Shown here one piece after another: positions 2,907 through 51,608 of a stretch of 64,000 nucleotides of DNA. The first letter of the stretch is position 1; every line of letters begins with the position of its first letter. The translations under genes were made by a program, and so were the position numbers. This stretch comes from a virus: positions 62,001 to 126,000 of IMG/VR virus record IMGVR_UViG_3300037475_000240; one strand, written 5' to 3'. The notes beneath the pieces were generated by a model, which saw nothing but the letters and a program-made list of their open reading frames with translations, had not been told where the DNA came from and made no database searches.

Positions 2907-4083
2907 GGGCAGCCTTTCTTCCACGCTTTTTTGGAGCTTCATCAGAAGTGTCTTCAACGTCAATGGATTTTGCTAACTTTGCTTGTTGTTCAGCTCTTTT
3001 AAGTTCAAGCCTATTATCACGAGCACTAGAAATTTTTTCTTCTAACTCTAAACATAAAGCAGAATCATTCTGTAAAGCATCACAGAATTTACCAAATCCT
3101 ACCCACTTATAATCCCCATATTCATGAGATACTGTGCTTGGCTTCTTGACAACGTCATAATCAATCGCTAACTGAGCGACTTCGATGTGACGATCTATAA
3201 CACCAATTCCGAAGTCTACTTTAAATTCACATTTTCTTGGCCAAGGACCAAATTTTGATTTTTCTATCGTGGCACGGATAGTTTGACCAATTTTATTTTC
3301 TTTTTCATCAAGAATCTTAGCATCAGCTCTATTAACTGGTTCAAAATAAACGTTAGCGCTCAAAAAGTGAGCATAACTATTTCCGCCAGAGAAAGAATGA
3401 TCAACGCCATATGGATCCATATTGGCTTTTTTATGATTGATAATAATAAAAGGGATATTAGCTTTGCTAACCTCTAGTGACAATTTACGAAAAGTTGTAG
3501 TTAAAAATCTAGCAAGTAAAGCCATATTCATTTTACCAACAGCTGAAACGTCTTCGCCAGGAGGAATAATTGATCCTAATGAATCAAGTACAACAATATT
3601 AATATTGAATTCTCCTGCTACAATTTTATCTAATAATCCTTCTTTAGATTTACCTTTAAGAATATGTGTCTTAGCATCTTCTTTAGGAACACCAAGAACC
3701 ATTTCAAAACATTTTCTACCATTAACGGCAGTATCTCCTTCAACTAAGATAACTCTTGAAGTATCAACACCTAGAGCCTCTGCCCAAGTAGGATCAAAAG
3801 TACCTTCAGCATCAATAAATAGCTGTTGAGATGTTGGATCTTCTGCTTGAGCTTGTTTCATAGCAATCATTGCCATGAGTGTTTTACCTGATCCTGCTGG
3901 ACCATAATATTGAATAAGTCTTCCTTTTGGCAATCCACCTGAAGACAAAGCATCATCTAATAATAAAGAACCGGTTTGAATTACTGGTAGTTTTTGACCA
4001 ATAGTTTCATGTGCAAATTTATAATCTAATTGATCGGCTGAATCTGCATAACTCTTAAAAAACGCATCTAATTTGTCTGACAT
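2896..4083 (-). CDS. recA: RecA/UvsX-family recombinase
   Basis: Strand-exchange ATPase for homologous recombination and recombination-dependent replication. Walker A is GPAGSGKT at residues 61-68, Walker B ends at Asp167 in NIVVLDS, and the catalytic-Glu region lies in DAEGTFD near residue 91. The C-terminus is basic and Lys/Arg-rich (KKRGRK). I chose the ATG at 4083 because GGGAGA sits correctly before it; an in-frame GTG at 4095 is an alternative. At 395 aa the length suits both RecA and UvsX. Neighbouring recombination genes (SSB, RuvC-like) fit. Confidence 0.92.
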   Translation of the reverse strand: MSDKLDAFFKSYADSADQLDYKFAHETIGQKLPVIQTGSLLLDDALSSGGLPKGRLIQYYGPAGSGKTLMAMIAMKQAQAEDPTSQQLFIDAEGTFDPTWAEALGVDTSRVILVEGDTAVNGRKCFEMVLGVPKEDAKTHILKGKSKEGLLDKIVAGEFNINIVVLDSLGSIIPPGEDVSAVGKMNMALLARFLTTTFRKLSLEVSKANIPFIIINHKKANMDPYGVDHSFSGGNSYAHFLSANVYFEPVNRADAKILDEKENKIGQTIRATIEKSKFGPWPRKCEFKVDFGIGVIDRHIEVAQLAIDYDVVKKPSTVSHEYGDYKWVGFGKFCDALQNDSALCLELEEKISSARDNRLELKRAEQQAKLAKSIDVEDTSDEAPKKRGRKAAHVE

Positions 4084-4120
4084 TTTATCTCCCACGCTCC
4101 GGGACTTGATTTCCTACTAG

Positions 4121-4126
4121 ATTATA
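4121..4126 (-). promoter_or_regulatory. Possible -10 box for recA
   Basis: TATAAT on the minus strand, 37 bases before the recA ATG, in the only sizeable gap of this gene group. No clear -35 element is visible. Confidence 0.3.
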
Positions 4127-4187
4127 TCTGACCGCTATTTTACTTATTTTATCTTTAAAAGATTTTTAATTAAAGCTTATTTTCTAT

Positions 4188-4694
4188 TTATTCCCAGCCC
4201 TCAGCCGTTTTTTCTGGCTTTAGACCATATCCTAAGATAGTTCTTCTTAATCCGGCAGCAATATCTTTGTAATGATGGTGCGCTCGAATTAATATGTCAT
4301 ATTTTTTTTCTAGTACTACTTTACTACCCTTTGCTTTTGCTAATTTGATTTGTACTGCTTCTACGTCAGTGGAAGATTCACCTGCCCACTTTTTCATATC
4401 AGCTGTTGTTTTTGATCCATCAGGAGCAGTATACTCCAAGGATACTCTATTTTTTGTACTATTTACTTTAGTCTCTAGGTAGCCAACTGTCTTGACTATT
4501 TTACCTAAGTATTCTGTTAATATATCAGCCCCTCTTAAAGATTGTTGTTGCAACATTTCGGCATGTGCCAAATCAATTGCATCTTCAATTTGAAGTTTTG
4601 ATAATACTTGCTGTATTTCAGTTAAATCAAAACTTATAAAGTCTTCTTCTAACTGATCTCCTAACAAATCACCAAGTCTTACTTGTTCACTCAT
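4188..4694 (-). CDS. Conserved-looking hypothetical protein
   Basis: 168 aa, highly charged and mostly helical, with an acidic N-terminus (LGDLLGDQLEEDF) and a His-rich AHHHYKD stretch near residue 140. I do not recognise the family. It ends about 100 bases before the recA start and is probably transcribed with the genes upstream. Confidence 0.75.
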   Translation of the reverse strand: MSEQVRLGDLLGDQLEEDFISFDLTEIQQVLSKLQIEDAIDLAHAEMLQQQSLRGADILTEYLGKIVKTVGYLETKVNSTKNRVSLEYTAPDGSKTTADMKKWAGESSTDVEAVQIKLAKAKGSKVVLEKKYDILIRAHHHYKDIAAGLRRTILGYGLKPEKTAEGWE

Positions 4695-4747
4695 GGTGTC
4701 TTACCTCTTAATATAAACTGCTGAACTTTTTCTCGACAAATAAATTA

Positions 4748-5071
4748 TTATTTGTTTTTTAATTTTTCGTCATATTCAGCAATTTTTGCTTTCATTTGAC
4801 TACATATATCGGTTACTTGGTCTTGCATTAATCTTAAATGTTGATGCTGCATCAGTGACATTAAAAATAAAAATACTTCAAAACTTGTTTGCCGTTTGCT
4901 GGGTGGTTTTAAAAAAATAATAATTCCACTAGCATCTGTTTCAAACAAATCCATAAATAAATCTTCACCTTTATTAGTTAATGTAGTGTAAGATTTAACT
5001 ATTTTTTCGTACATACCCCATTCGTCTTGAGTCATTTCAAGTCTTTTATTATCTACAACTCTAATTGACAT
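4748..5071 (-). CDS. Hypothetical protein, helical
   Basis: 107 aa from the ATG at 5071, preceded by AGGAT; a longer version starting at 5107 would run into the gene upstream. Contains a hydrophobic central strand and a C-terminal helix rich in Gln/Met/Lys that could form a coiled coil. No family recognised. Confidence 0.7.
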   Translation of the reverse strand: MSIRVVDNKRLEMTQDEWGMYEKIVKSYTTLTNKGEDLFMDLFETDASGIIIFLKPPSKRQTSFEVFLFLMSLMQHQHLRLMQDQVTDICSQMKAKIAEYDEKLKNK

Positions 5072-5079
5072 AATTATCC

Positions 5080-5400
5080 TTACACATAATATATACAAAC
5101 GGCACATGATAATTCTTCTGGATCATCATAATTAACGTCTCCTACTAAAATTACTTTATCTTCAGGACAATCATCATTCAATTGAATTACAGAATTTATA
5201 TCAAAAGAGCATTCAGCCTTTAATTTTTTTTCTGAAATAGGATTAACAATAACTGTATTTACTTTTATATCCCATCTCTCAATACTTATCCAAGCATCAA
5301 TAAATTTAGTCTTTTCACAATAAACACAATGCGGATGAATATGATTTAATCCTGACTCAGCGAAGTCGATAAATTTTAAAATTTCTTGTTTAGTAAACAT
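5080..5400 (-). CDS. Hypothetical protein with two cysteine pairs
   Basis: 106 aa. A CVYC pair near residue 25 and a CAVC pair near the C-terminus could bind one metal ion, though they are far apart. Acidic overall. Lies nine bases from the next gene in the same operon. Function unknown. Confidence 0.7.
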   Translation of the reverse strand: MFTKQEILKFIDFAESGLNHIHPHCVYCEKTKFIDAWISIERWDIKVNTVIVNPISEKKLKAECSFDINSVIQLNDDCPEDKVILVGDVNYDDPEELSCAVCIYYV

Positions 5401-7319: not shown

Positions 7320-8579
7320 TCAATCATTTACATCTTCATCCAAGTCAATTAGCCCTTCATCATACAAGGCATCTTCAATTCTTTCCATTAAGTTAGTGAG
7401 ATCATTAGGATTTTCGATTACATTTTCATTTATTGCGGCGGCACCTTTGGCTTTAGCTAGCTTTAAATTAACTTTTTTAGGCTTTAAATCTGCTGGAACT
7501 GCTGGTTGAACAGATAAATCAAACAATTGATTTAATATAATTCCAATATCATCTTCATAAATATTGGTAGTACCAGAAAAGCTTAATGCAATGCCCGTAT
7601 CAAATTCCGCCTTACTATTTACTTCTTTAATACGCTTTTGTACGTCTGCCCACCTATCTGGGAAAATAGTGCAAGAACACTGCTCACCATTCTTATCTTC
7701 GATAATAGCCTTAATCATTGGCATGCCGTAGTATTTGCTAGTTTCTTTTTTTACCTTAAATTCGAAAAAACTTCTAATAATACAGTTTACTGGCTCAATT
7801 GTAGATTTATTTCCCGCCTTTTTAATATCTTTGATTGTTCTATGATCCCCGGCAAAGAAAGCCTTGTAAGCTTGATATGGCTTACAAATAAAGGACTCGT
7901 TTAAGTAAAACTGTTCTAACGCATATTTTTCTGATAAACTCCAATCTTGTTCGTTTACCCAAGGATAAATAAAATCTTCCTTAGATGGATCATGTTTTTT
8001 CATCCAAACTTGTAGTTTCTTTCTATAATCTGAACAATATAAAAACATATGTTTTCTAGAAATATTAAAACTATCTAAGCAGCCTGAAGCTGCCAAAGCT
8101 TGAATTGTATTAGCTCTTACCTTCTTTGAATCTACTCTTGACATAAAATCTAAGAATGAAGTAAATGGTCTCTTAGTAATAATATCATTAATAGCATCTT
8201 CACCTACATACTTCAATGCATCCAAACCCGTAATTAATTTATCTTCACCTTCCATTGTATAGGACAATAGTGACTTATTTATGTCTGGGGCAATAATTTT
8301 TACTTTATGTTGTCTAATTTCTTTCTTAATTTTTTCAATATTTGCTTTTGCATCTGGAGAATTTGATTTTACTTCCATCATTAAATTAGATAATAAAAAT
8401 TCAATAGGATAATGTGCTTTCAAATACGCAGTTTTATAACTTGTCATAGAGTATAAAACAGAATGTGAATTAGATGTCAGCATCCCATTAGATAAATAAA
8501 ACTGATGATCTGGATGATTAACTTCTAAATCATAAGTTTGAAAATTACCGACTGGTGTTATTTTTTTAATATTACCCAT
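7320..8579 (-). CDS. dnaE: DNA polymerase III alpha subunit, C-terminal part carrying an N-terminal C-intein
   Basis: 419 aa from the ATG at 8579, chosen because AGGTG precedes it at a good distance; a GTG at 8588 is part of that site. Residues 1-37 are a C-intein: YDLEV followed by H-x-FYLSNGMLTSN, ending in the catalytic Asn. Residue 38 is Ser, the first extein residue, and from there the protein reads SHSVLYSMTSYKTAYLKAHYP, matching the block after the GYGFNK motif of bacterial DnaE. The remainder covers the C-terminal fingers, helix-hairpin-helix and OB-type regions. The C-terminus is acidic. Only after trans-splicing with the N-terminal part would a full polymerase of about 1,180 residues form, close to the 1,160 of E. 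coli DnaE. Confidence 0.93.
   Translation of the reverse strand: MGNIKKITPVGNFQTYDLEVNHPDHQFYLSNGMLTSNSHSVLYSMTSYKTAYLKAHYPIEFLLSNLMMEVKSNSPDAKANIEKIKKEIRQHKVKIIAPDINKSLLSYTMEGEDKLITGLDALKYVGEDAINDIITKRPFTSFLDFMSRVDSKKVRANTIQALAASGCLDSFNISRKHMFLYCSDYRKKLQVWMKKHDPSKEDFIYPWVNEQDWSLSEKYALEQFYLNESFICKPYQAYKAFFAGDHRTIKDIKKAGNKSTIEPVNCIIRSFFEFKVKKETSKYYGMPMIKAIIEDKNGEQCSCTIFPDRWADVQKRIKEVNSKAEFDTGIALSFSGTTNIYEDDIGIILNQLFDLSVQPAVPADLKPKKVNLKLAKAKGAAAINENVIENPNDLTNLMERIEDALYDEGLIDLDEDVND
8469..8579 (-). other. C-intein segment (37 aa) of the split dnaE intein
   Basis: Blocks F (YDLEVNHPDHQF) and G (NGMLTSN) of the Hint fold. The C-terminal pair is Ser-Asn rather than His-Asn, as in the Npu DnaE C-intein, and the +1 residue is Ser. 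Length matches known split C-inteins (about 35-40 aa). Confidence 0.9.
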
Positions 8580-9627
8580 ATACTTCACCTATCTTATAAA
8601 TTCCTGGTTGATTATCATTAAGTATCTTTAATAATCTATCTAAACACTCTTGTTTAAAATATGAATTATCTATTTTTTCTTTATTAATTTGTTTAGTTGA
8701 ATATTTAAATTGATCATGAGATATTCTAATTAATAAATAATTATGTTCTTTAATAAAAATTTCTACTTCTTGATCTCTAGTTTGATTTTTGATTAAAATT
8801 TCTTCACCAAAAATATCTTTAAAATGAATAGCTCCATCAAACTCTATAAATATTTTGTTTGTATTATCTTTAATATCTATTTGTCTTCTTAATGACTTAG
8901 AAGAAAAAGCCTTTGAATTAATAAATTGATTTCTTTTAAAATCAAATCCTGGTAAAGAAACCACAAAATCAAATAATATTTTTTCTGGTTTACTTTGAAA
9001 AGAAGAAATCATTGGAACAATACATTTTTCGTAAAAATCTTCTGGATTTTCATCTCTCCATTTTTGTAATTGTTTAGTTCTTTGTTCTAAAATTTCGGGG
9101 CGGGCAGAAGTTTTTTTAGCAGCTTCAGACGCTTTTGTTTTCATTACATCAGATTGATTAACTTCTGTCATCACTTTAGCGCGCCGTTGGCGCTCTTCTG
9201 GATTATTTATAATGGCAGCTTTTACTCCTATACTAACTTTCTCCCAATATTCTGTTAAATCTGTACCGTTTTCAATAGCTTGATGTAGCCAAGAATTTTC
9301 TGAAGCATTTTTAGCATATTTTTGTGAAGACTTTTCAGAAGTAGTAGTTCCTTCATAATCTTTTGGATTAATATTGTGTATCTTTTTTAAATGAATTCCT
9401 AAATTTTGAGCATGAAAATTACAAATTTTACACACAACAAAATCAATACCTTCTATTAAGTTTTTACTATCTTCAATACATTGTTTTAAATGAACTATTA
9501 TTGTGTCTTTTGATCTACATTTATAGTTGCAATATTGACAATAATAGTCAAGTCTTCCTTTATTATCTTCCACAATGGAAGCATCTCCCCACTCTCCTCT
9601 ACGCGAAATTTGTGGCTCATTGTACAT
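8572..9627 (-). CDS. Free-standing homing endonuclease, Vsr-like PD-(D/E)XK fold with two zinc fingers
   Basis: 351 aa. The first 85 residues hold two Cys/His fingers: C30-C33 with H46/C50, and C66-C69 with H79 and H84. The middle is basic and helical. The C-terminal domain has the nuclease core RRQIDI (Asp251) then IEFDG-x2-H (Glu262, Asp264, His268), as in very-short-patch-repair-like (EDxHD) homing enzymes. Predicted to cut intein-free dnaE alleles and promote spread of the split intein. It starts inside the N-intein coding sequence (130-base overlap, with GGAGAG before its ATG) and ends 8 bases into the C-terminal dnaE gene. Confidence 0.85.
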   Translation of the reverse strand: MYNEPQISRRGEWGDASIVEDNKGRLDYYCQYCNYKCRSKDTIIVHLKQCIEDSKNLIEGIDFVVCKICNFHAQNLGIHLKKIHNINPKDYEGTTTSEKSSQKYAKNASENSWLHQAIENGTDLTEYWEKVSIGVKAAIINNPEERQRRAKVMTEVNQSDVMKTKASEAAKKTSARPEILEQRTKQLQKWRDENPEDFYEKCIVPMISSFQSKPEKILFDFVVSLPGFDFKRNQFINSKAFSSKSLRRQIDIKDNTNKIFIEFDGAIHFKDIFGEEILIKNQTRDQEVEIFIKEHNYLLIRISHDQFKYSTKQINKEKIDNSYFKQECLDRLLKILNDNQPGIYKIGEVYG

Positions 9628-12230
9628 TTAACTTTCTCTCCAGATTCAAGTTCTATTTCTACTAAAGGTAGAAAGCCATGATCATATTTATTAATAATTT
9701 CTACTAAAATATTTTCTTTTGTTTGTTCATCACGAGATTGAATCCAATCACCAATTTGAACATCTTGTAATGTTTTGGTAGATTTAAAATTACCTTCTGA
9801 ATCATATATATCAACTGTTTCAGAAAACAACACCGACTGGTTAAAACCATAACCCTGAAACTTTTCAACTACTTCATCCCAAATACGTTTAGCAATTTCT
9901 TCATTTACTCCACATTTTACAGAATCTGTAATAAATTCTAATCTCCATTGCTGAGCCTTCTTAGGATTCTTTCCCTTTTCTTTAGTTAATTTTCTGAGTC
10001 GATCTGCTGAATGCAAACTCCAGCCCGCAATATCTTGCGCAAGATACATAAGAGACTCTTCATATAATCCGAATCCAAAAGTATTATTAAACGCTCTTGC
10101 CAAATTAGGATGTAATAAACTAAATTTCTTTCTACCATCTTTGGTAGCAATAAAATCTTCTCTCATATCACGAGCTGATGGTCTTGCCAAAGAGTTAATG
10201 TAGCTAATATCATTTACTGATTTTGGTTTAATTTTTCTACACAAATCAATAGTTCCACCTGAAGTTCCTAATTGAAATACACAAAATGTATCTCCTTTAG
10301 AAATTAAATCATATGATTCTTGATCATAAGTATCATAGCTTAGCGCATCTAAAGGTGAAGCATCCTTGCCCGAAGCTTTAATTAATTTAATTGTCTGTCC
10401 AATAATATCCAGTGTAGATAATCCTAAAGTATCCATTTTTACTAAGCCGTTTTCTTCAGCTTTATCTTTATCATATTCAAGAGCTAATGAACCATCTTTA
10501 TCTCGACGTAGTGGAATTAATCCAGTTAATGGGCGTGCTGAAATAATAATACCACCAGCATGTGTCGACCAAGCTCTAAATTTACCGCAAATACTTTTAT
10601 ATTTTTCTAACTGAGGATATTTTTTTACATATTCTGTAAATAATGGAACTTTAATTAAAGCTTCATCAATAGACTTAATGTCTGCTGGTAAACAATCGGC
10701 AACATCAGTTCCTATCTTAACAGCATCTTCACGTGATCCACCCAACTCACATGACCTTGAAATGTCTCGGGCATAAACTTTGGGCGTAATAGTATTGACG
10801 TTTGAAACGTGAGCTACGTGATCTTCGCCATATTTTTTTCTTAAATATTCTTGTACGAGCGCGCGACCAGATGGAGCAAAATCTGTATCAATATCTGGAA
10901 AGCTTGATTTTTCTTTATTATGAAATCTAGCAAAAATTAAACTATACTTAATTGGATCTGCTTGGTGGATACCTAATAAATAAGCAATAAGAGATCCTCC
11001 AACAGAACCTCGACCTTCGCCAACAGCAATATTATTTTTTCTCGCCCAATTAATATAATCAGCAACAATTAACATATAACTGGAAAAATCGTGGAACTCT
11101 AATACATCAAGTTCTTCTGCGACTCTATCATCATATATTTTTTTATCTTCTATAGTTTGTTCACCTATTCTAGCAAAATAAGATTTTTCACATTGAAATC
11201 TTAAATAAAGTTTATCATCAGCTAATTGTTTTATTTGCTCAATTTGACTATTTCTCCAATTAAGAAAATCTGCATAGTCGGGTTCATCTTTGAAAGGGAA
11301 AATAGGTAACTCTTTTCCAGAAGGATTAGAAAACTTCGGGTCGATCCAATCCGGAAATTCACAGAGGCTAGCAAAATGAATAGTATTCTCGCACAAATTT
11401 TTGGAGAAACCTTCACCATATAATGTATCATAGTTTCTGGCAAAAAATGCTTCAACTTCATCTCCAGTTTTTAAATAAAATTCAGAAACAGGATATTTTA
11501 ATCTAAAATTAGAATATACTGGCTGATGCGAGCCGATCGCCAAAAGCACATCATGAACTTCATGATCTTCTTTATTAAGATAGTGTGCATTACATGCTGG
11601 CACAATCTTAATATTGTGTTGCAGACCCAGCTTAATTAATTGTCTATTTAAAAAGAACTGATCGATTTCATCAGTAAAAATATTTCCGCCACGTTTCATA
11701 TTATTTGGTTGAACTTCAATTCCTAAATTATCTCCAAATAAATCTTTTAATCTTAATAAGGCTTTTTCGGCTTCTTCACTTTTACCATTATTTAACAGCT
11801 GAGAAACGATACCGTTTCCACACGCAGTTAAACAAAGCATACCTTCTTTATATTGCTCTAATAATTTCCAATCAACCAAAGGATAAACTCTTTTGCCTAA
11901 AAATGAGCCTTGATCGAAAGCTTTTTTATTAATAGTTAATAAATTTCGATATCCCTCTGCGTTCTTTGCTAATAAAATGATGTGCCTAAATTTGCCTTCA
12001 ATGTTTGAAGCATCATCCACGAAATAACATTCACAGCCCATAATTAACTTAACACCAGTTTCTCTGGAAGCTTTAAGTGCATCCCAAGCAGCAGCTAAGG
12101 TACCATGATCAGTAATTGCAATTGCAGTTTGACCTAAATCTTTAGCCTTTTTAAAAAGATCTTTTGTTGAAATAGTAGAATCTAGAATAGAATAATCAGT
12201 TTGATTGTGCAATGATACAAAATCAGTCAT
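9498..12230 (-). CDS. dnaE: DNA polymerase III alpha subunit, N-terminal part ending in an N-intein
   Basis: Replicative polymerase, 910 aa, of which the first 798 are DnaE. The PHP domain comes first; its metal motif reads HNQ where HxH is usual, so proofreading activity is doubtful. The palm follows with PDIDTD (Asp446 and Asp448, matching E. coli D401/D403) and KMDTLGL (Asp600, matching D555). The polymerase sequence stops at FQGYGFNQ and passes straight into an N-intein beginning at Ser799. AGGAAG precedes the ATG. The gene cannot give a working polymerase alone; its partner is the C-terminal part at 7320-8579. Confidence 0.95.
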   Translation of the reverse strand: MTDFVSLHNQTDYSILDSTISTKDLFKKAKDLGQTAIAITDHGTLAAAWDALKASRETGVKLIMGCECYFVDDASNIEGKFRHIILLAKNAEGYRNLLTINKKAFDQGSFLGKRVYPLVDWKLLEQYKEGMLCLTACGNGIVSQLLNNGKSEEAEKALLRLKDLFGDNLGIEVQPNNMKRGGNIFTDEIDQFFLNRQLIKLGLQHNIKIVPACNAHYLNKEDHEVHDVLLAIGSHQPVYSNFRLKYPVSEFYLKTGDEVEAFFARNYDTLYGEGFSKNLCENTIHFASLCEFPDWIDPKFSNPSGKELPIFPFKDEPDYADFLNWRNSQIEQIKQLADDKLYLRFQCEKSYFARIGEQTIEDKKIYDDRVAEELDVLEFHDFSSYMLIVADYINWARKNNIAVGEGRGSVGGSLIAYLLGIHQADPIKYSLIFARFHNKEKSSFPDIDTDFAPSGRALVQEYLRKKYGEDHVAHVSNVNTITPKVYARDISRSCELGGSREDAVKIGTDVADCLPADIKSIDEALIKVPLFTEYVKKYPQLEKYKSICGKFRAWSTHAGGIIISARPLTGLIPLRRDKDGSLALEYDKDKAEENGLVKMDTLGLSTLDIIGQTIKLIKASGKDASPLDALSYDTYDQESYDLISKGDTFCVFQLGTSGGTIDLCRKIKPKSVNDISYINSLARPSARDMREDFIATKDGRKKFSLLHPNLARAFNNTFGFGLYEESLMYLAQDIAGWSLHSADRLRKLTKEKGKNPKKAQQWRLEFITDSVKCGVNEEIAKRIWDEVVEKFQGYGFNQSVLFSETVDIYDSEGNFKSTKTLQDVQIGDWIQSRDEQTKENILVEIINKYDHGFLPLVEIELESGEKVKCTMSHKFRVEESGEMLPLWKIIKEDLTIIVNIATINVDQKTQ
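9501..9836 (-). other. N-intein segment (112 aa) of the split dnaE intein
   Basis: Begins at Ser1 directly after GYGFNQ. Block A-type strand (SVLFSETVDIYDSEG), a GDWI turn, and block B with the TxxH motif (CTMSHKF) are visible. Length compares with 88-102 aa in known split N-inteins. The last third is read in a second frame by the endonuclease gene. Confidence 0.9.
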
Positions 12231-13605: not shown

Positions 13606-14853
13606 TTATTGTACAATGTTTACATTTTTTGCAACAAAATCTAATGTATATTCATCTTTAATTCTAGAGAATAGAATTTGTAAATATCCTGTTCGATTTG
13701 CTTCTTTTATAATTTCATCTACTGATTTATCAGTCCTAGATTTTGCTATATTTGCTTTAATCATATCAAATACTTCTTGATCGCTTAATTGAGCTTCTGG
13801 TTCTTCTTCTCTAATTTTATCTAGAACAAGAGACAATTTACAATTCTTTTCAGCTAATGCTAAGAATCTTTCTTTATCTTCATCCGGACAAGTTTCCCAA
13901 TTTAAACTAGATTGATGTGCTAAATATTGTGCTTCAGATAATGAAATCCAATTAGGCACATCAATTTTATTATCATCAATTAATCTGTAACTAATTGCCT
14001 CCATAAGAGCTGCTCGTTCGCCCTCAACACTCTTAGCTACGGCAATACCATTAACATATTCTCTTAACTCTTCTATATTATTTTTTTGTAACTTGACTGC
14101 CAACTGATCATCTAAAGGACAAGGAATATTTTTTGATCCCATATTTAAAGTCACTTTAAATTTTACAGTTTTACCTTTTAACGAAGGTAATCCATCTTCT
14201 GGCACAATAATATCAAACTCTCTAACATCACCAATTACCATACCTAATAAATTAGAATCAAATTCTTTGAGTTGACTAAATCCTACTGTAAGCATTTCTC
14301 CCTCAGCAACCAAAGATTCTACTTTCTCTCCGTCAACAGAACCTTCATAATCTAAAATTACGGTATCTCCATCTTGAACAAAATCTGTCTCTGTATATGG
14401 ATTAGTTTCACCTAAACGAACTCTAAGATCTTGCAGCATTTTCTCTGAAAACTCTAAGGCAGATCCTCTTGAAGAAGGCTTTGGAATATCTATCCCTTTG
14501 AAAGGGACAAGTTCAAAGGTAGGTTTAGTTAAAACTTCAAATTCACAAGTAAATTTTCCATCTGCCAAAAGAGCTGAATTAAACTTGGGCGCCCCATGTG
14601 GTTTAATCTTTTTCTCAAAAAGAGTGTTATGGTAAGCATCTTCAGCAAGCGCGCGCTTCAGAGACTCTTCGATTTGAGTATTGTAATGTCTTTTAATAGC
14701 ATCAACGCTTGCCTTTCCCTTACGAAAGCCTGGGACTGGTGCCTTCTTAAACGAAGTTATAATTTCGCCTCGTTTATTTAAAATTTGCTCGGCATCTGCC
14801 TCATAAACAACTGATAGCTTGCACGGTTCTAATTCTGTGACTTGAATTTGCAT
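13606..14853 (-). CDS. tig: Trigger factor chaperone
   Basis: Ribosome-bound chaperone and prolyl isomerase that meets nascent chains at the exit tunnel. The ribosome-docking signature GFRKGK lies at residues 42-47. An FKBP-type PPIase domain (DGDTVILDYEGSVDG) starts near residue 160, and a long helical C-terminal arm completes the protein. The 415-aa length is close to the bacterial 430, so it is a complete three-domain trigger factor. Such a gene in a phage implies help with folding virion proteins or steering of host ribosomes. Confidence 0.95.
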   Translation of the reverse strand: MQIQVTELEPCKLSVVYEADAEQILNKRGEIITSFKKAPVPGFRKGKASVDAIKRHYNTQIEESLKRALAEDAYHNTLFEKKIKPHGAPKFNSALLADGKFTCEFEVLTKPTFELVPFKGIDIPKPSSRGSALEFSEKMLQDLRVRLGETNPYTETDFVQDGDTVILDYEGSVDGEKVESLVAEGEMLTVGFSQLKEFDSNLLGMVIGDVREFDIIVPEDGLPSLKGKTVKFKVTLNMGSKNIPCPLDDQLAVKLQKNNIEELREYVNGIAVAKSVEGERAALMEAISYRLIDDNKIDVPNWISLSEAQYLAHQSSLNWETCPDEDKERFLALAEKNCKLSLVLDKIREEEPEAQLSDQEVFDMIKANIAKSRTDKSVDEIIKEANRTGYLQILFSRIKDEYTLDFVAKNVNIVQ

Positions 14854-46591: not shown

Positions 46592-46596
46592 AATAG

Positions 46597-46671
46597 CTCT
46601 CTAGGTAGGATTTGAACCTACAATCATCTATTTAGAGTAGATAGCTTTAGACCACTGAGACTTACAGGAGA
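46597..46671 (-). tRNA. Second tRNA-like gene with CUA (amber) anticodon
   Basis: T-arm is canonical (GTAGG TTCAAAT CCTAC) and the anticodon arm is perfect (ATCTA CTCTAAA TAGAT), with anticodon CTA. The acceptor TCTCCTG/CTAGAGA has two mismatches (pairs 5 and 6), the D-stem pairs poorly, and CCA is not encoded. It could be a degenerate or edited tRNA. Some of the stem assignments may shift by one base. Confidence 0.5.
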
Positions 46672-51252: not shown

Positions 51253-51608
51253 TGGTGTAGGCGCAGGGTATCGAAGCCCTGGTCCACAAAACGTCATTAT
51301 CGAAATTCATTCACAAGCTTAGTTAATGTTAACGTCACTAACAACGTTGAAAGAATTCGCTCTCACGGGCTATCTACATTAATTTCATGTTGAACTATAT
51401 AGAGTTATCCAACACTATCTTTAGTGGGTTTATACTTCTTTGATTACCAAAAATATCTCATCTGGAAGTATCAAGTGTGCCCTTAGGCTGCTTGAGCAAT
51501 GCTATTATCGTTTGCATTTGGACGTTTAATTGCTTTTTATAAGGTTGCAATCATCCTTAGCTTGCATCATTTCGACAAATCTTTTCCATGTCGAATCCAT
51601 TCGCCCAC
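51253..51608 (-). ncRNA. ssrA: Transfer-messenger RNA (tmRNA)
   Basis: 356 nt. The 5' end GTGGGCG pairs with CGCCTAC before A-CCA, and the single wobble is G3-U70, the alanine identity pair. The 5' domain carries ATGGATTCGACATGG, matching the conserved tmRNA start, and the T-arm is CAGGG..TTCGA..CCCTG. The tag frame at 51515-51483 reads ANDNSIAQAA then TAA; with the charged Ala the tag is A-ANDNSIAQAA. Rescues stalled ribosomes and tags nascent chains for proteolysis. The usual tag end LAA is QAA here. Confidence 0.93.

Follow-up and report, generated by a model that had tools for sequence, protein, structure and literature searches.

A viral dnaE gene broken by a split intein and a Vsr-like nuclease gene, and the forms of this insertion in related viruses

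How might a virus obtain a whole replicative polymerase from a gene that is broken into overlapping reading frames, and what could have placed the break there? This question is raised by the dnaE gene in a 64,000-nucleotide stretch of viral DNA (hereafter the window; bases 62001-126000 of the 126,875-base IMG/VR virus record IMGVR_UViG_3300037475_000240), which we compared with related loci and contigs, designated by L-numbers. On the minus strand, dnaE is interrupted at GYGFNQ/SHS (the slash marks the break) by an insert of 1,368 bp (8469-9836) that holds, in this order, an N-intein ending the left protein, an open reading frame (ORF) for a Vsr-like nuclease with two zinc fingers, and a C-intein opening the right protein (Table 1). 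We consider it very likely that this locus is a fractured dnaE, the halves of which would trans-splice to a normal polymerase while the free nuclease would spread the insert to empty dnaE genes.

The interrupted dnaE and its split intein

The left ORF (12230..9498, minus strand) encodes 910 amino acids (aa), of which the first 798 are DnaE (PHP, pol III alpha and finger regions) and run without a stop into the N-intein, which begins SVLFSETVDIY with its Ser1 codon at 9836-9834. The C-intein ends NGMLTSN/SHS at 8469/8468 and is followed in the right protein by SHSVLYSM and the remaining DnaE, up to the end of the ORF at 7320; this protein most likely starts at ATG 8579, which overlaps the nuclease stop as ATGGGTAA, rather than at GTG 8588. 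When matched to NF004226, a DnaE model of NCBIfam, the left protein stops at position 752 and the right one begins at 752, and jointly the two dnaE ORFs cover an intact DnaE protein. The nuclease has an ORF of its own, fused to neither intein half and in a frame that differs from that of the N-intein. An initial annotation, made from the sequence alone, had placed the cut at GYGFNQ/SHS and proved right as to the position of every piece, all on the minus strand. It had also set the nuclease gene between the two halves; the gene is indeed separate, but does not simply lie between them, as it shares 130 nt with the N-intein frame and reaches the start of the C-part.

The window has the residues of a class 1 split intein, namely S1, T72-M-S-H75, N37 of the C-intein and S+1. 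Ser1 and the block C-T-x-x-H-K-F-R are conserved among six aligned N-halves, and all six aligned C-halves finish TSN/S; the proposed N-intein (Ser1, TxxH) at the end of the left protein and C-intein (YDLEV, NGMLTSN) at the start of the right one are thus borne out by blocks conserved in aligned relatives. Searched against solved structures, a profile of the N-half was nearest to cyanobacterial-type DnaE inteins (7qil, E = 1.7e-6), and the contiguous homologue L085 matched 7qil at 6e-12 and Npu 2keq at 8e-10. The HINT fold was seen on a model of L085, standing in for the window's own two halves (predicted local distance difference test, pLDDT, 82.8, with the final ten residues poorly resolved); Npu DnaE came first among the fold matches of this model (E = 9e-8). 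The fold comparison suggested in the initial annotation therefore came out best for Npu DnaE, with gp41-1, NrdJ-1 and IMPDH-1 ranking lower, but on a contiguous homologue and not on the two window halves together. The two DnaE pieces of the window would very probably join after translation by trans-splicing.

In the nearest relative, L004 (a 447-kb contig), dnaE is uninterrupted and the site is empty without a footprint; the joined window flanks are 83% and 85% identical to it in DNA over 300 bp per side, and the two pair on the DnaE tree at support 100. On this tree, the empty/occupied state changes at least seven times. Including L004, 29 empty-site rows were obtained. The same residue is fractured at 27 loci including the window, where each contig was counted once and had to show the nuclease and both junctions. 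Clean empty sites beside many independent occupied ones uphold the earlier call of a fractured gene in the phage's own dnaE. Intein and host divergence are out of step, given that L005 is 81% identical to the window in DnaE but 51% in the N-intein, and L065 29% and 55%, respectively. The same split intein is also found at L129 (96-1343), a 3.2-kb contig binned in a Thioploca metagenome-assembled genome, which was the sole match among bacterial genomes and is possibly a phage fragment.

The nuclease gene

In the nuclease, a helical middle part separates two C2H2/C2HC-like zinc fingers from a Vsr-like domain at the C-terminus. Vsr structures 1cw0 and 1vsr were within the top three Foldseek matches of its AlphaFold model (probability 1.00), and its catalytic residues are retained across 31 family members. 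A Vsr-like nuclease, as first annotated, is thus supported by predicted fold and catalytic residues, and matches to DUF559 and ROS/MUCR zinc fingers in family members agree with that call. With the Vsr mismatch endonuclease it shares both the predicted fold and a conserved acidic/His pattern, which we take to resemble that of the EDxHD homing endonuclease family (I-Bth0305I); I-Bth0305I itself was absent among the matches listed for the nuclease fold. The N-terminal zinc fingers and the long helical linker set the window nuclease apart from Vsr and EDxHD enzymes alike. Searched by itself, the window nuclease fell into no Pfam or NCBIfam family, and cultured phages contain only weak relatives of it. 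A single-sequence search of viral contigs found nothing, and a four-member profile did find relatives.

The start codon of the nuclease is made from Lys-Cys codons just ahead of the intein TxxH block, with GGAGAG upstream. In about two dozen relatives the nuclease likewise lies in the +2 frame, mostly starting 50-130 nt before the N-intein stop, and in most relatives having this overlap the Shine-Dalgarno sequence and nuclease start are similarly placed.

Forms of the insertion in related loci

At this one dnaE site, relatives of the window show the intein at graded stages. Besides empty sites (L004 and others) and fractures with the nuclease (the window and others), there are contiguous mini-inteins without a nuclease, of 147 aa in L085 and of 150 aa, with Cys1, in Rhodococcus phage NiceHouse gp90. 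L083, which is fractured and has the nuclease, is a close relative of L085 (92% identical over the DnaE region compared, 69% in the N-intein). In L027 the same split intein houses a different nuclease, a phrog_559/3339 homing endonuclease in a 667-aa frame. L005 retains a nuclease remnant of ~60 aa, and L067 and L059 have the split intein with the nuclease gone; in L059 both ends of a window-type nuclease persist around an internal deletion, and remains of the same nuclease are still visible in two of these three decayed loci.

Several further observations were made on these loci. The mini-intein at L002 6311-6760 (MT521992 gp90) lies in a cultured-phage DnaE annotated only as a DnaE-like polymerase, and Rhodococcus phages Trina, Weasels2, Grayson and Peregrin match the intein query at low identity. 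The replacement nuclease of L027 (10667-12649) has 661 aa and bears repeated zinc-ribbon-like domains. In L033 (6242-9922) and L034 (8007-11510), a second contiguous intein of >300 aa occurs at DnaE residue ~408 (site GxGRG/C..HN/SVGGS) and looks LAGLIDADG-containing; the same dnaE is fractured downstream and would hence carry one cis and one trans intein.

The wider family holds forms beyond those of the initial annotation, most notably inteins that are contiguous and have the nuclease encoded in a different frame. At ten loci, seven of them in dnaE at the window's site and three in other genes (Table 1), the N-half, a linker of ~240-300 codons and the C-half form a single open frame, and a Vsr-like nuclease lies inside it in the +1 frame. 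In the eight loci tested, no stop was observed in the intein frame of the nuclease region, compared to 11-18 expected from synonymous codon shuffling of the nuclease (5,000 shuffles; minimum 3 stops). The third frame of these eight loci has 11-21 stops, and the N-intein frame of fractured loci 18-60. Across four loci compared, the nuclease frame is 29-51% conserved and the linker frame 18-32%, which points to the nuclease as the constrained product and to a linker that is merely kept open. Deletions that removed most of the nuclease in L131 and L136 leave the intein frame open, a further sign of selection on that frame. The hidden-frame nucleases keep their catalytic residues, a good Shine-Dalgarno sequence precedes the nuclease ATG in L057, L055 and L106, and Pfam scores one intein across residues 17-427 of L090, on the same contig as L057, above cut-off. 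No relative of the hidden-frame nuclease was found among cultured phages, and searches of the open-access literature turned up no earlier report of an intein that houses its nuclease out of frame. We regard it as likely, with good confidence, that in these loci one stretch of DNA codes both for a linker that is spliced out and for an active homing endonuclease.

Table 1 Features of the interrupted dnaE in the window, and related inteins with a nuclease in a second frame
Feature	Position	Strand	Evidence or remarks
N-extein, DnaE residues 1-798, ends ...KFQGYGFNQ	9837..12230	minus	PF02811, PF07733, PF17657; TIGR00594; phrog_405 E=2.9e-197
N-intein at end of left ORF, 112 aa counted from Ser1 (~101 aa conserved), block B C-T-M-S-H	9501..9836	minus	weak TIGR01445, PF14890/PF01079; alignment with 5 relatives
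Shine-Dalgarno-like GGAGAG for nuclease, within N-intein codons immediately upstream of TxxH block	9636..9641	minus	sequence reading
Stand-alone Vsr-like putative homing endonuclease ORF, 351 aa, frame +2 to N-intein, 130-nt overlap	8572..9627	minus	AlphaFold pLDDT 85.6; Foldseek 1cw0, 1vsr
Nuclease zinc finger 1 (C30, C33, H46, C50)	9478..9540	minus	C33, C50 nearly invariant in 31 relatives; C2H2 matches in PDB
Nuclease zinc finger 2 (C66, C69, H79, H84)	9376..9432	minus	C66, C69 nearly invariant, H79 invariant; ROS_MUCR in 16/31 members
Vsr-like catalytic domain	8587..8994	minus	invariant D251, D264, H268, D285, R301; nearly invariant E215, E262; DUF559 in 7/31 members
Probable C-part ATG start overlapping nuclease stop (ATGGGTAA), putative translational coupling	8577..8579	minus	C-part begins near the end of the nuclease ORF in roughly half of the relatives
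C-intein, 37 aa, block F YDLEV...HPDHQFYLSNG, block G MLTSN, terminal Asn, +1 Ser	8469..8579	minus	weak TIGR01443; alignment: N37, S38 invariant
C-extein, remaining 382 aa of DnaE, starts SHSVLYSMTSYKTAYLKAHYP	7320..8468	minus	HHH_6 PF14579; DnaE models resume where N-part ends; matches intact DnaE of L004
Hidden-frame dnaE inteins	L057 5370-6653; L055 5361-6650; L106 3709-4875; L111 3733-5013; also L054, L056, L137		both frames open
Hidden-frame inteins in non-dnaE host genes	L107 3748-4962 (L108); L109 3283-4542; L138 about 4001-5221 (L140)		
Inteins with hidden nuclease mostly deleted	L131/L132 4019-4687; L136 4019-4723		nuclease ends still readable in +1

Elsewhere in the window, a phage-encoded trigger factor-like protein is found at 13606-14853 (Trigger_N E=1e-20, FKBP_C, Trigger_C). 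A phage-encoded transfer-messenger RNA (tmRNA; 51253-51608) was detected as well, and ARAGORN also called a tRNA with a CTA anticodon, labelled Pyl (46596-46671); the latter is an amber-suppressor candidate to which Rfam gives no support at that place. At 734-1290 of the phage contig L057, Rfam matches to a tmRNA and to a group I intron share 18 nt at the start of the intron match.

Proposed mechanism, rival explanations and known systems

The three overlapping cistrons would yield DnaE-N with the N-intein, the free nuclease, and the C-intein with DnaE-C. Translation of the nuclease would begin at its own Shine-Dalgarno sequence inside the N-intein codons, and that of the C-intein/DnaE-C protein through coupling where the nuclease ORF ends. 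The two halves of the intein would then associate, with Ser1 and Ser+1 as nucleophiles and cyclisation of the terminal Asn, and the exteins would be joined into a normal polymerase of ~1,180 residues with GYGFNQSHSVLYSM as the junction peptide of the ligated product. The nuclease, in turn, may cut at GYGFN(x)/SHS in the dnaE of co-infecting relatives that lack the intein; repair templated by the occupied copy would insert intein and nuclease together.

In a rival reading, splicing persists whereas the nuclease has lost its activity or mobility, and the split intein is a fixed relic that is vertically inherited. The grouping of window-clade nucleases and the existence of the decayed forms L005, L059 and L067 speak for this reading, which we nevertheless consider unlikely: the window nuclease ORF is intact with all invariant residues kept, the closest DnaE relative is empty without a scar, and vertical fixation would call for the nuclease and both halves of the intein to have been removed precisely, several times over. 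Far less probable is a two-subunit polymerase that forms without splicing, in which the intein parts only dock the DnaE parts. Split inteins do bind each other tightly, but Ser/Cys/Thr1, TxxH, the terminal Asn and the +1 Ser are conserved over very divergent loci, and docking alone needs none of them.

Such nucleases are also known from group I introns, and a group I intron or a plain nuclease-gene insertion removed at the RNA level may come to mind. It is hardly conceivable here, as intein blocks are complete on both sides and Rfam gave no group I/II match at this place in the window, although it did detect a group I intron elsewhere in L057. The chance of an assembly artefact is equally slight. 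Relatives with an intact dnaE, which the initial annotation had named as a possible sign of such an error, do exist; yet a clean empty site together with recurrence is the opposite of an assembly error, and at least 26 other viral contigs from different metagenomes, with diverged sequences, are broken at the same residue.

A number of results sit less comfortably with a splicing and mobile fractured dnaE. The penultimate residue of the C-intein is Ser and not the usual His, and TSN is invariant in six aligned relatives; inteins without a penultimate His can splice. The Foldseek E-value of the Vsr match is modest (7.5e-3, at probability 1.00). There is no extra synonymous constraint in the 130-nt overlap of N-intein and nuclease (0.43 versus 0.42), so that strong selection on the ~25 N-terminal residues of the nuclease is improbable, in agreement with a pLDDT near 45 there. 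The count of empty/occupied changes on the DnaE tree does not separate gain from loss. Finally, nucleases from the window's DnaE clade stay in a single clade of the nuclease tree, so that movement seems to occur mostly among relatives; those of a distant DnaE clade are not one group (approximately unbiased test, p = 0.00026; group named from the DnaE tree). Given that the window-clade nucleases stay together in the comparison of the two trees, we do not claim rampant nuclease transfer across distant lineages.

Fractured genes were reportedly described by Dassa et al. in 2009, for eight types of enzyme, as conserved DNA-metabolism genes, mainly of phages, which a split intein breaks in two and which have a separate endonuclease gene, in many cases Vsr-related, between the halves. 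The window dnaE has this layout, but its nuclease start sits inside N-intein codons, and here graded relatives (empty, contiguous, fractured, decayed, hidden-frame) are available at one site. The cyanobacterial DnaE split intein is inserted in the same block, at Y/CFN, and the window break lies four residues further on, after GYGFNQ. This intein (Npu, Ssp; 4kl5, 2keq) interrupts the same host protein, gave the top fold match, has halves of similar size (~100 and ~36 residues) and is among the nearest to the window family in sequence when compared within solved structures; it differs in its Cys nucleophiles, in halves that are far apart in the genome and in having no nuclease.

In Pseudomonas jumbo phage MIJ3, PolB is split by an intein with an HNH nuclease gene between the halves (PMC6892783), a similar break of a jumbo-phage replicative polymerase that involves PolB and HNH instead of DnaE and a Vsr-like nuclease. 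The gp41-1, NrdJ-1, IMPDH-1 and cysteine-less PolB split inteins (6qaz, 8ubs, 9hth; PMC12707363) are likewise split at the endonuclease insertion point, but occupy other host genes and were lower-ranking fold matches. The ShiLan domain, a hidden HNH in a non-intein insertion described in 2025 (PMC11855218), resembles the hidden-frame relatives in that a homing endonuclease lies in a frame differing from a stop-free host frame; it has no intein splicing domain and is retained in the host protein, whereas the hidden-frame nucleases sit in a contiguous intein. As far as can be seen, four things are new: the location in dnaE at this residue, the nuclease/N-intein overlap, the hidden-frame inteins and a series of stages that is complete.

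Taken jointly, and tentatively, dnaE-family inteins may house an out-of-frame nuclease in two ways, either by fracture and trans-splicing or by a stop-free dual frame, with loss of the nuclease leaving split inteins of the cyanobacterial DnaE kind, such as L059 and L067, or, from the dual frame, shrunken contiguous ones such as L131 and L136. The further step, that the cyanobacterial DnaE split intein derives from a phage element of this kind, is speculative. Arguments on how split inteins arise, and on why cyanobacterial DnaE carries the best-known example, have so far drawn on scattered end products. Here, a single site in a single gene is found empty, with a mini-intein, fractured with a nuclease, with a swapped nuclease, with a remnant and as a nuclease-free split intein, sometimes between close relatives, and the life cycle of such a genetic parasite can be read directly. 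The natural split inteins related to Npu DnaE offer material for protein engineering, and the second reading frame inside a spliced protein element appears to be a new housing for a homing nuclease.

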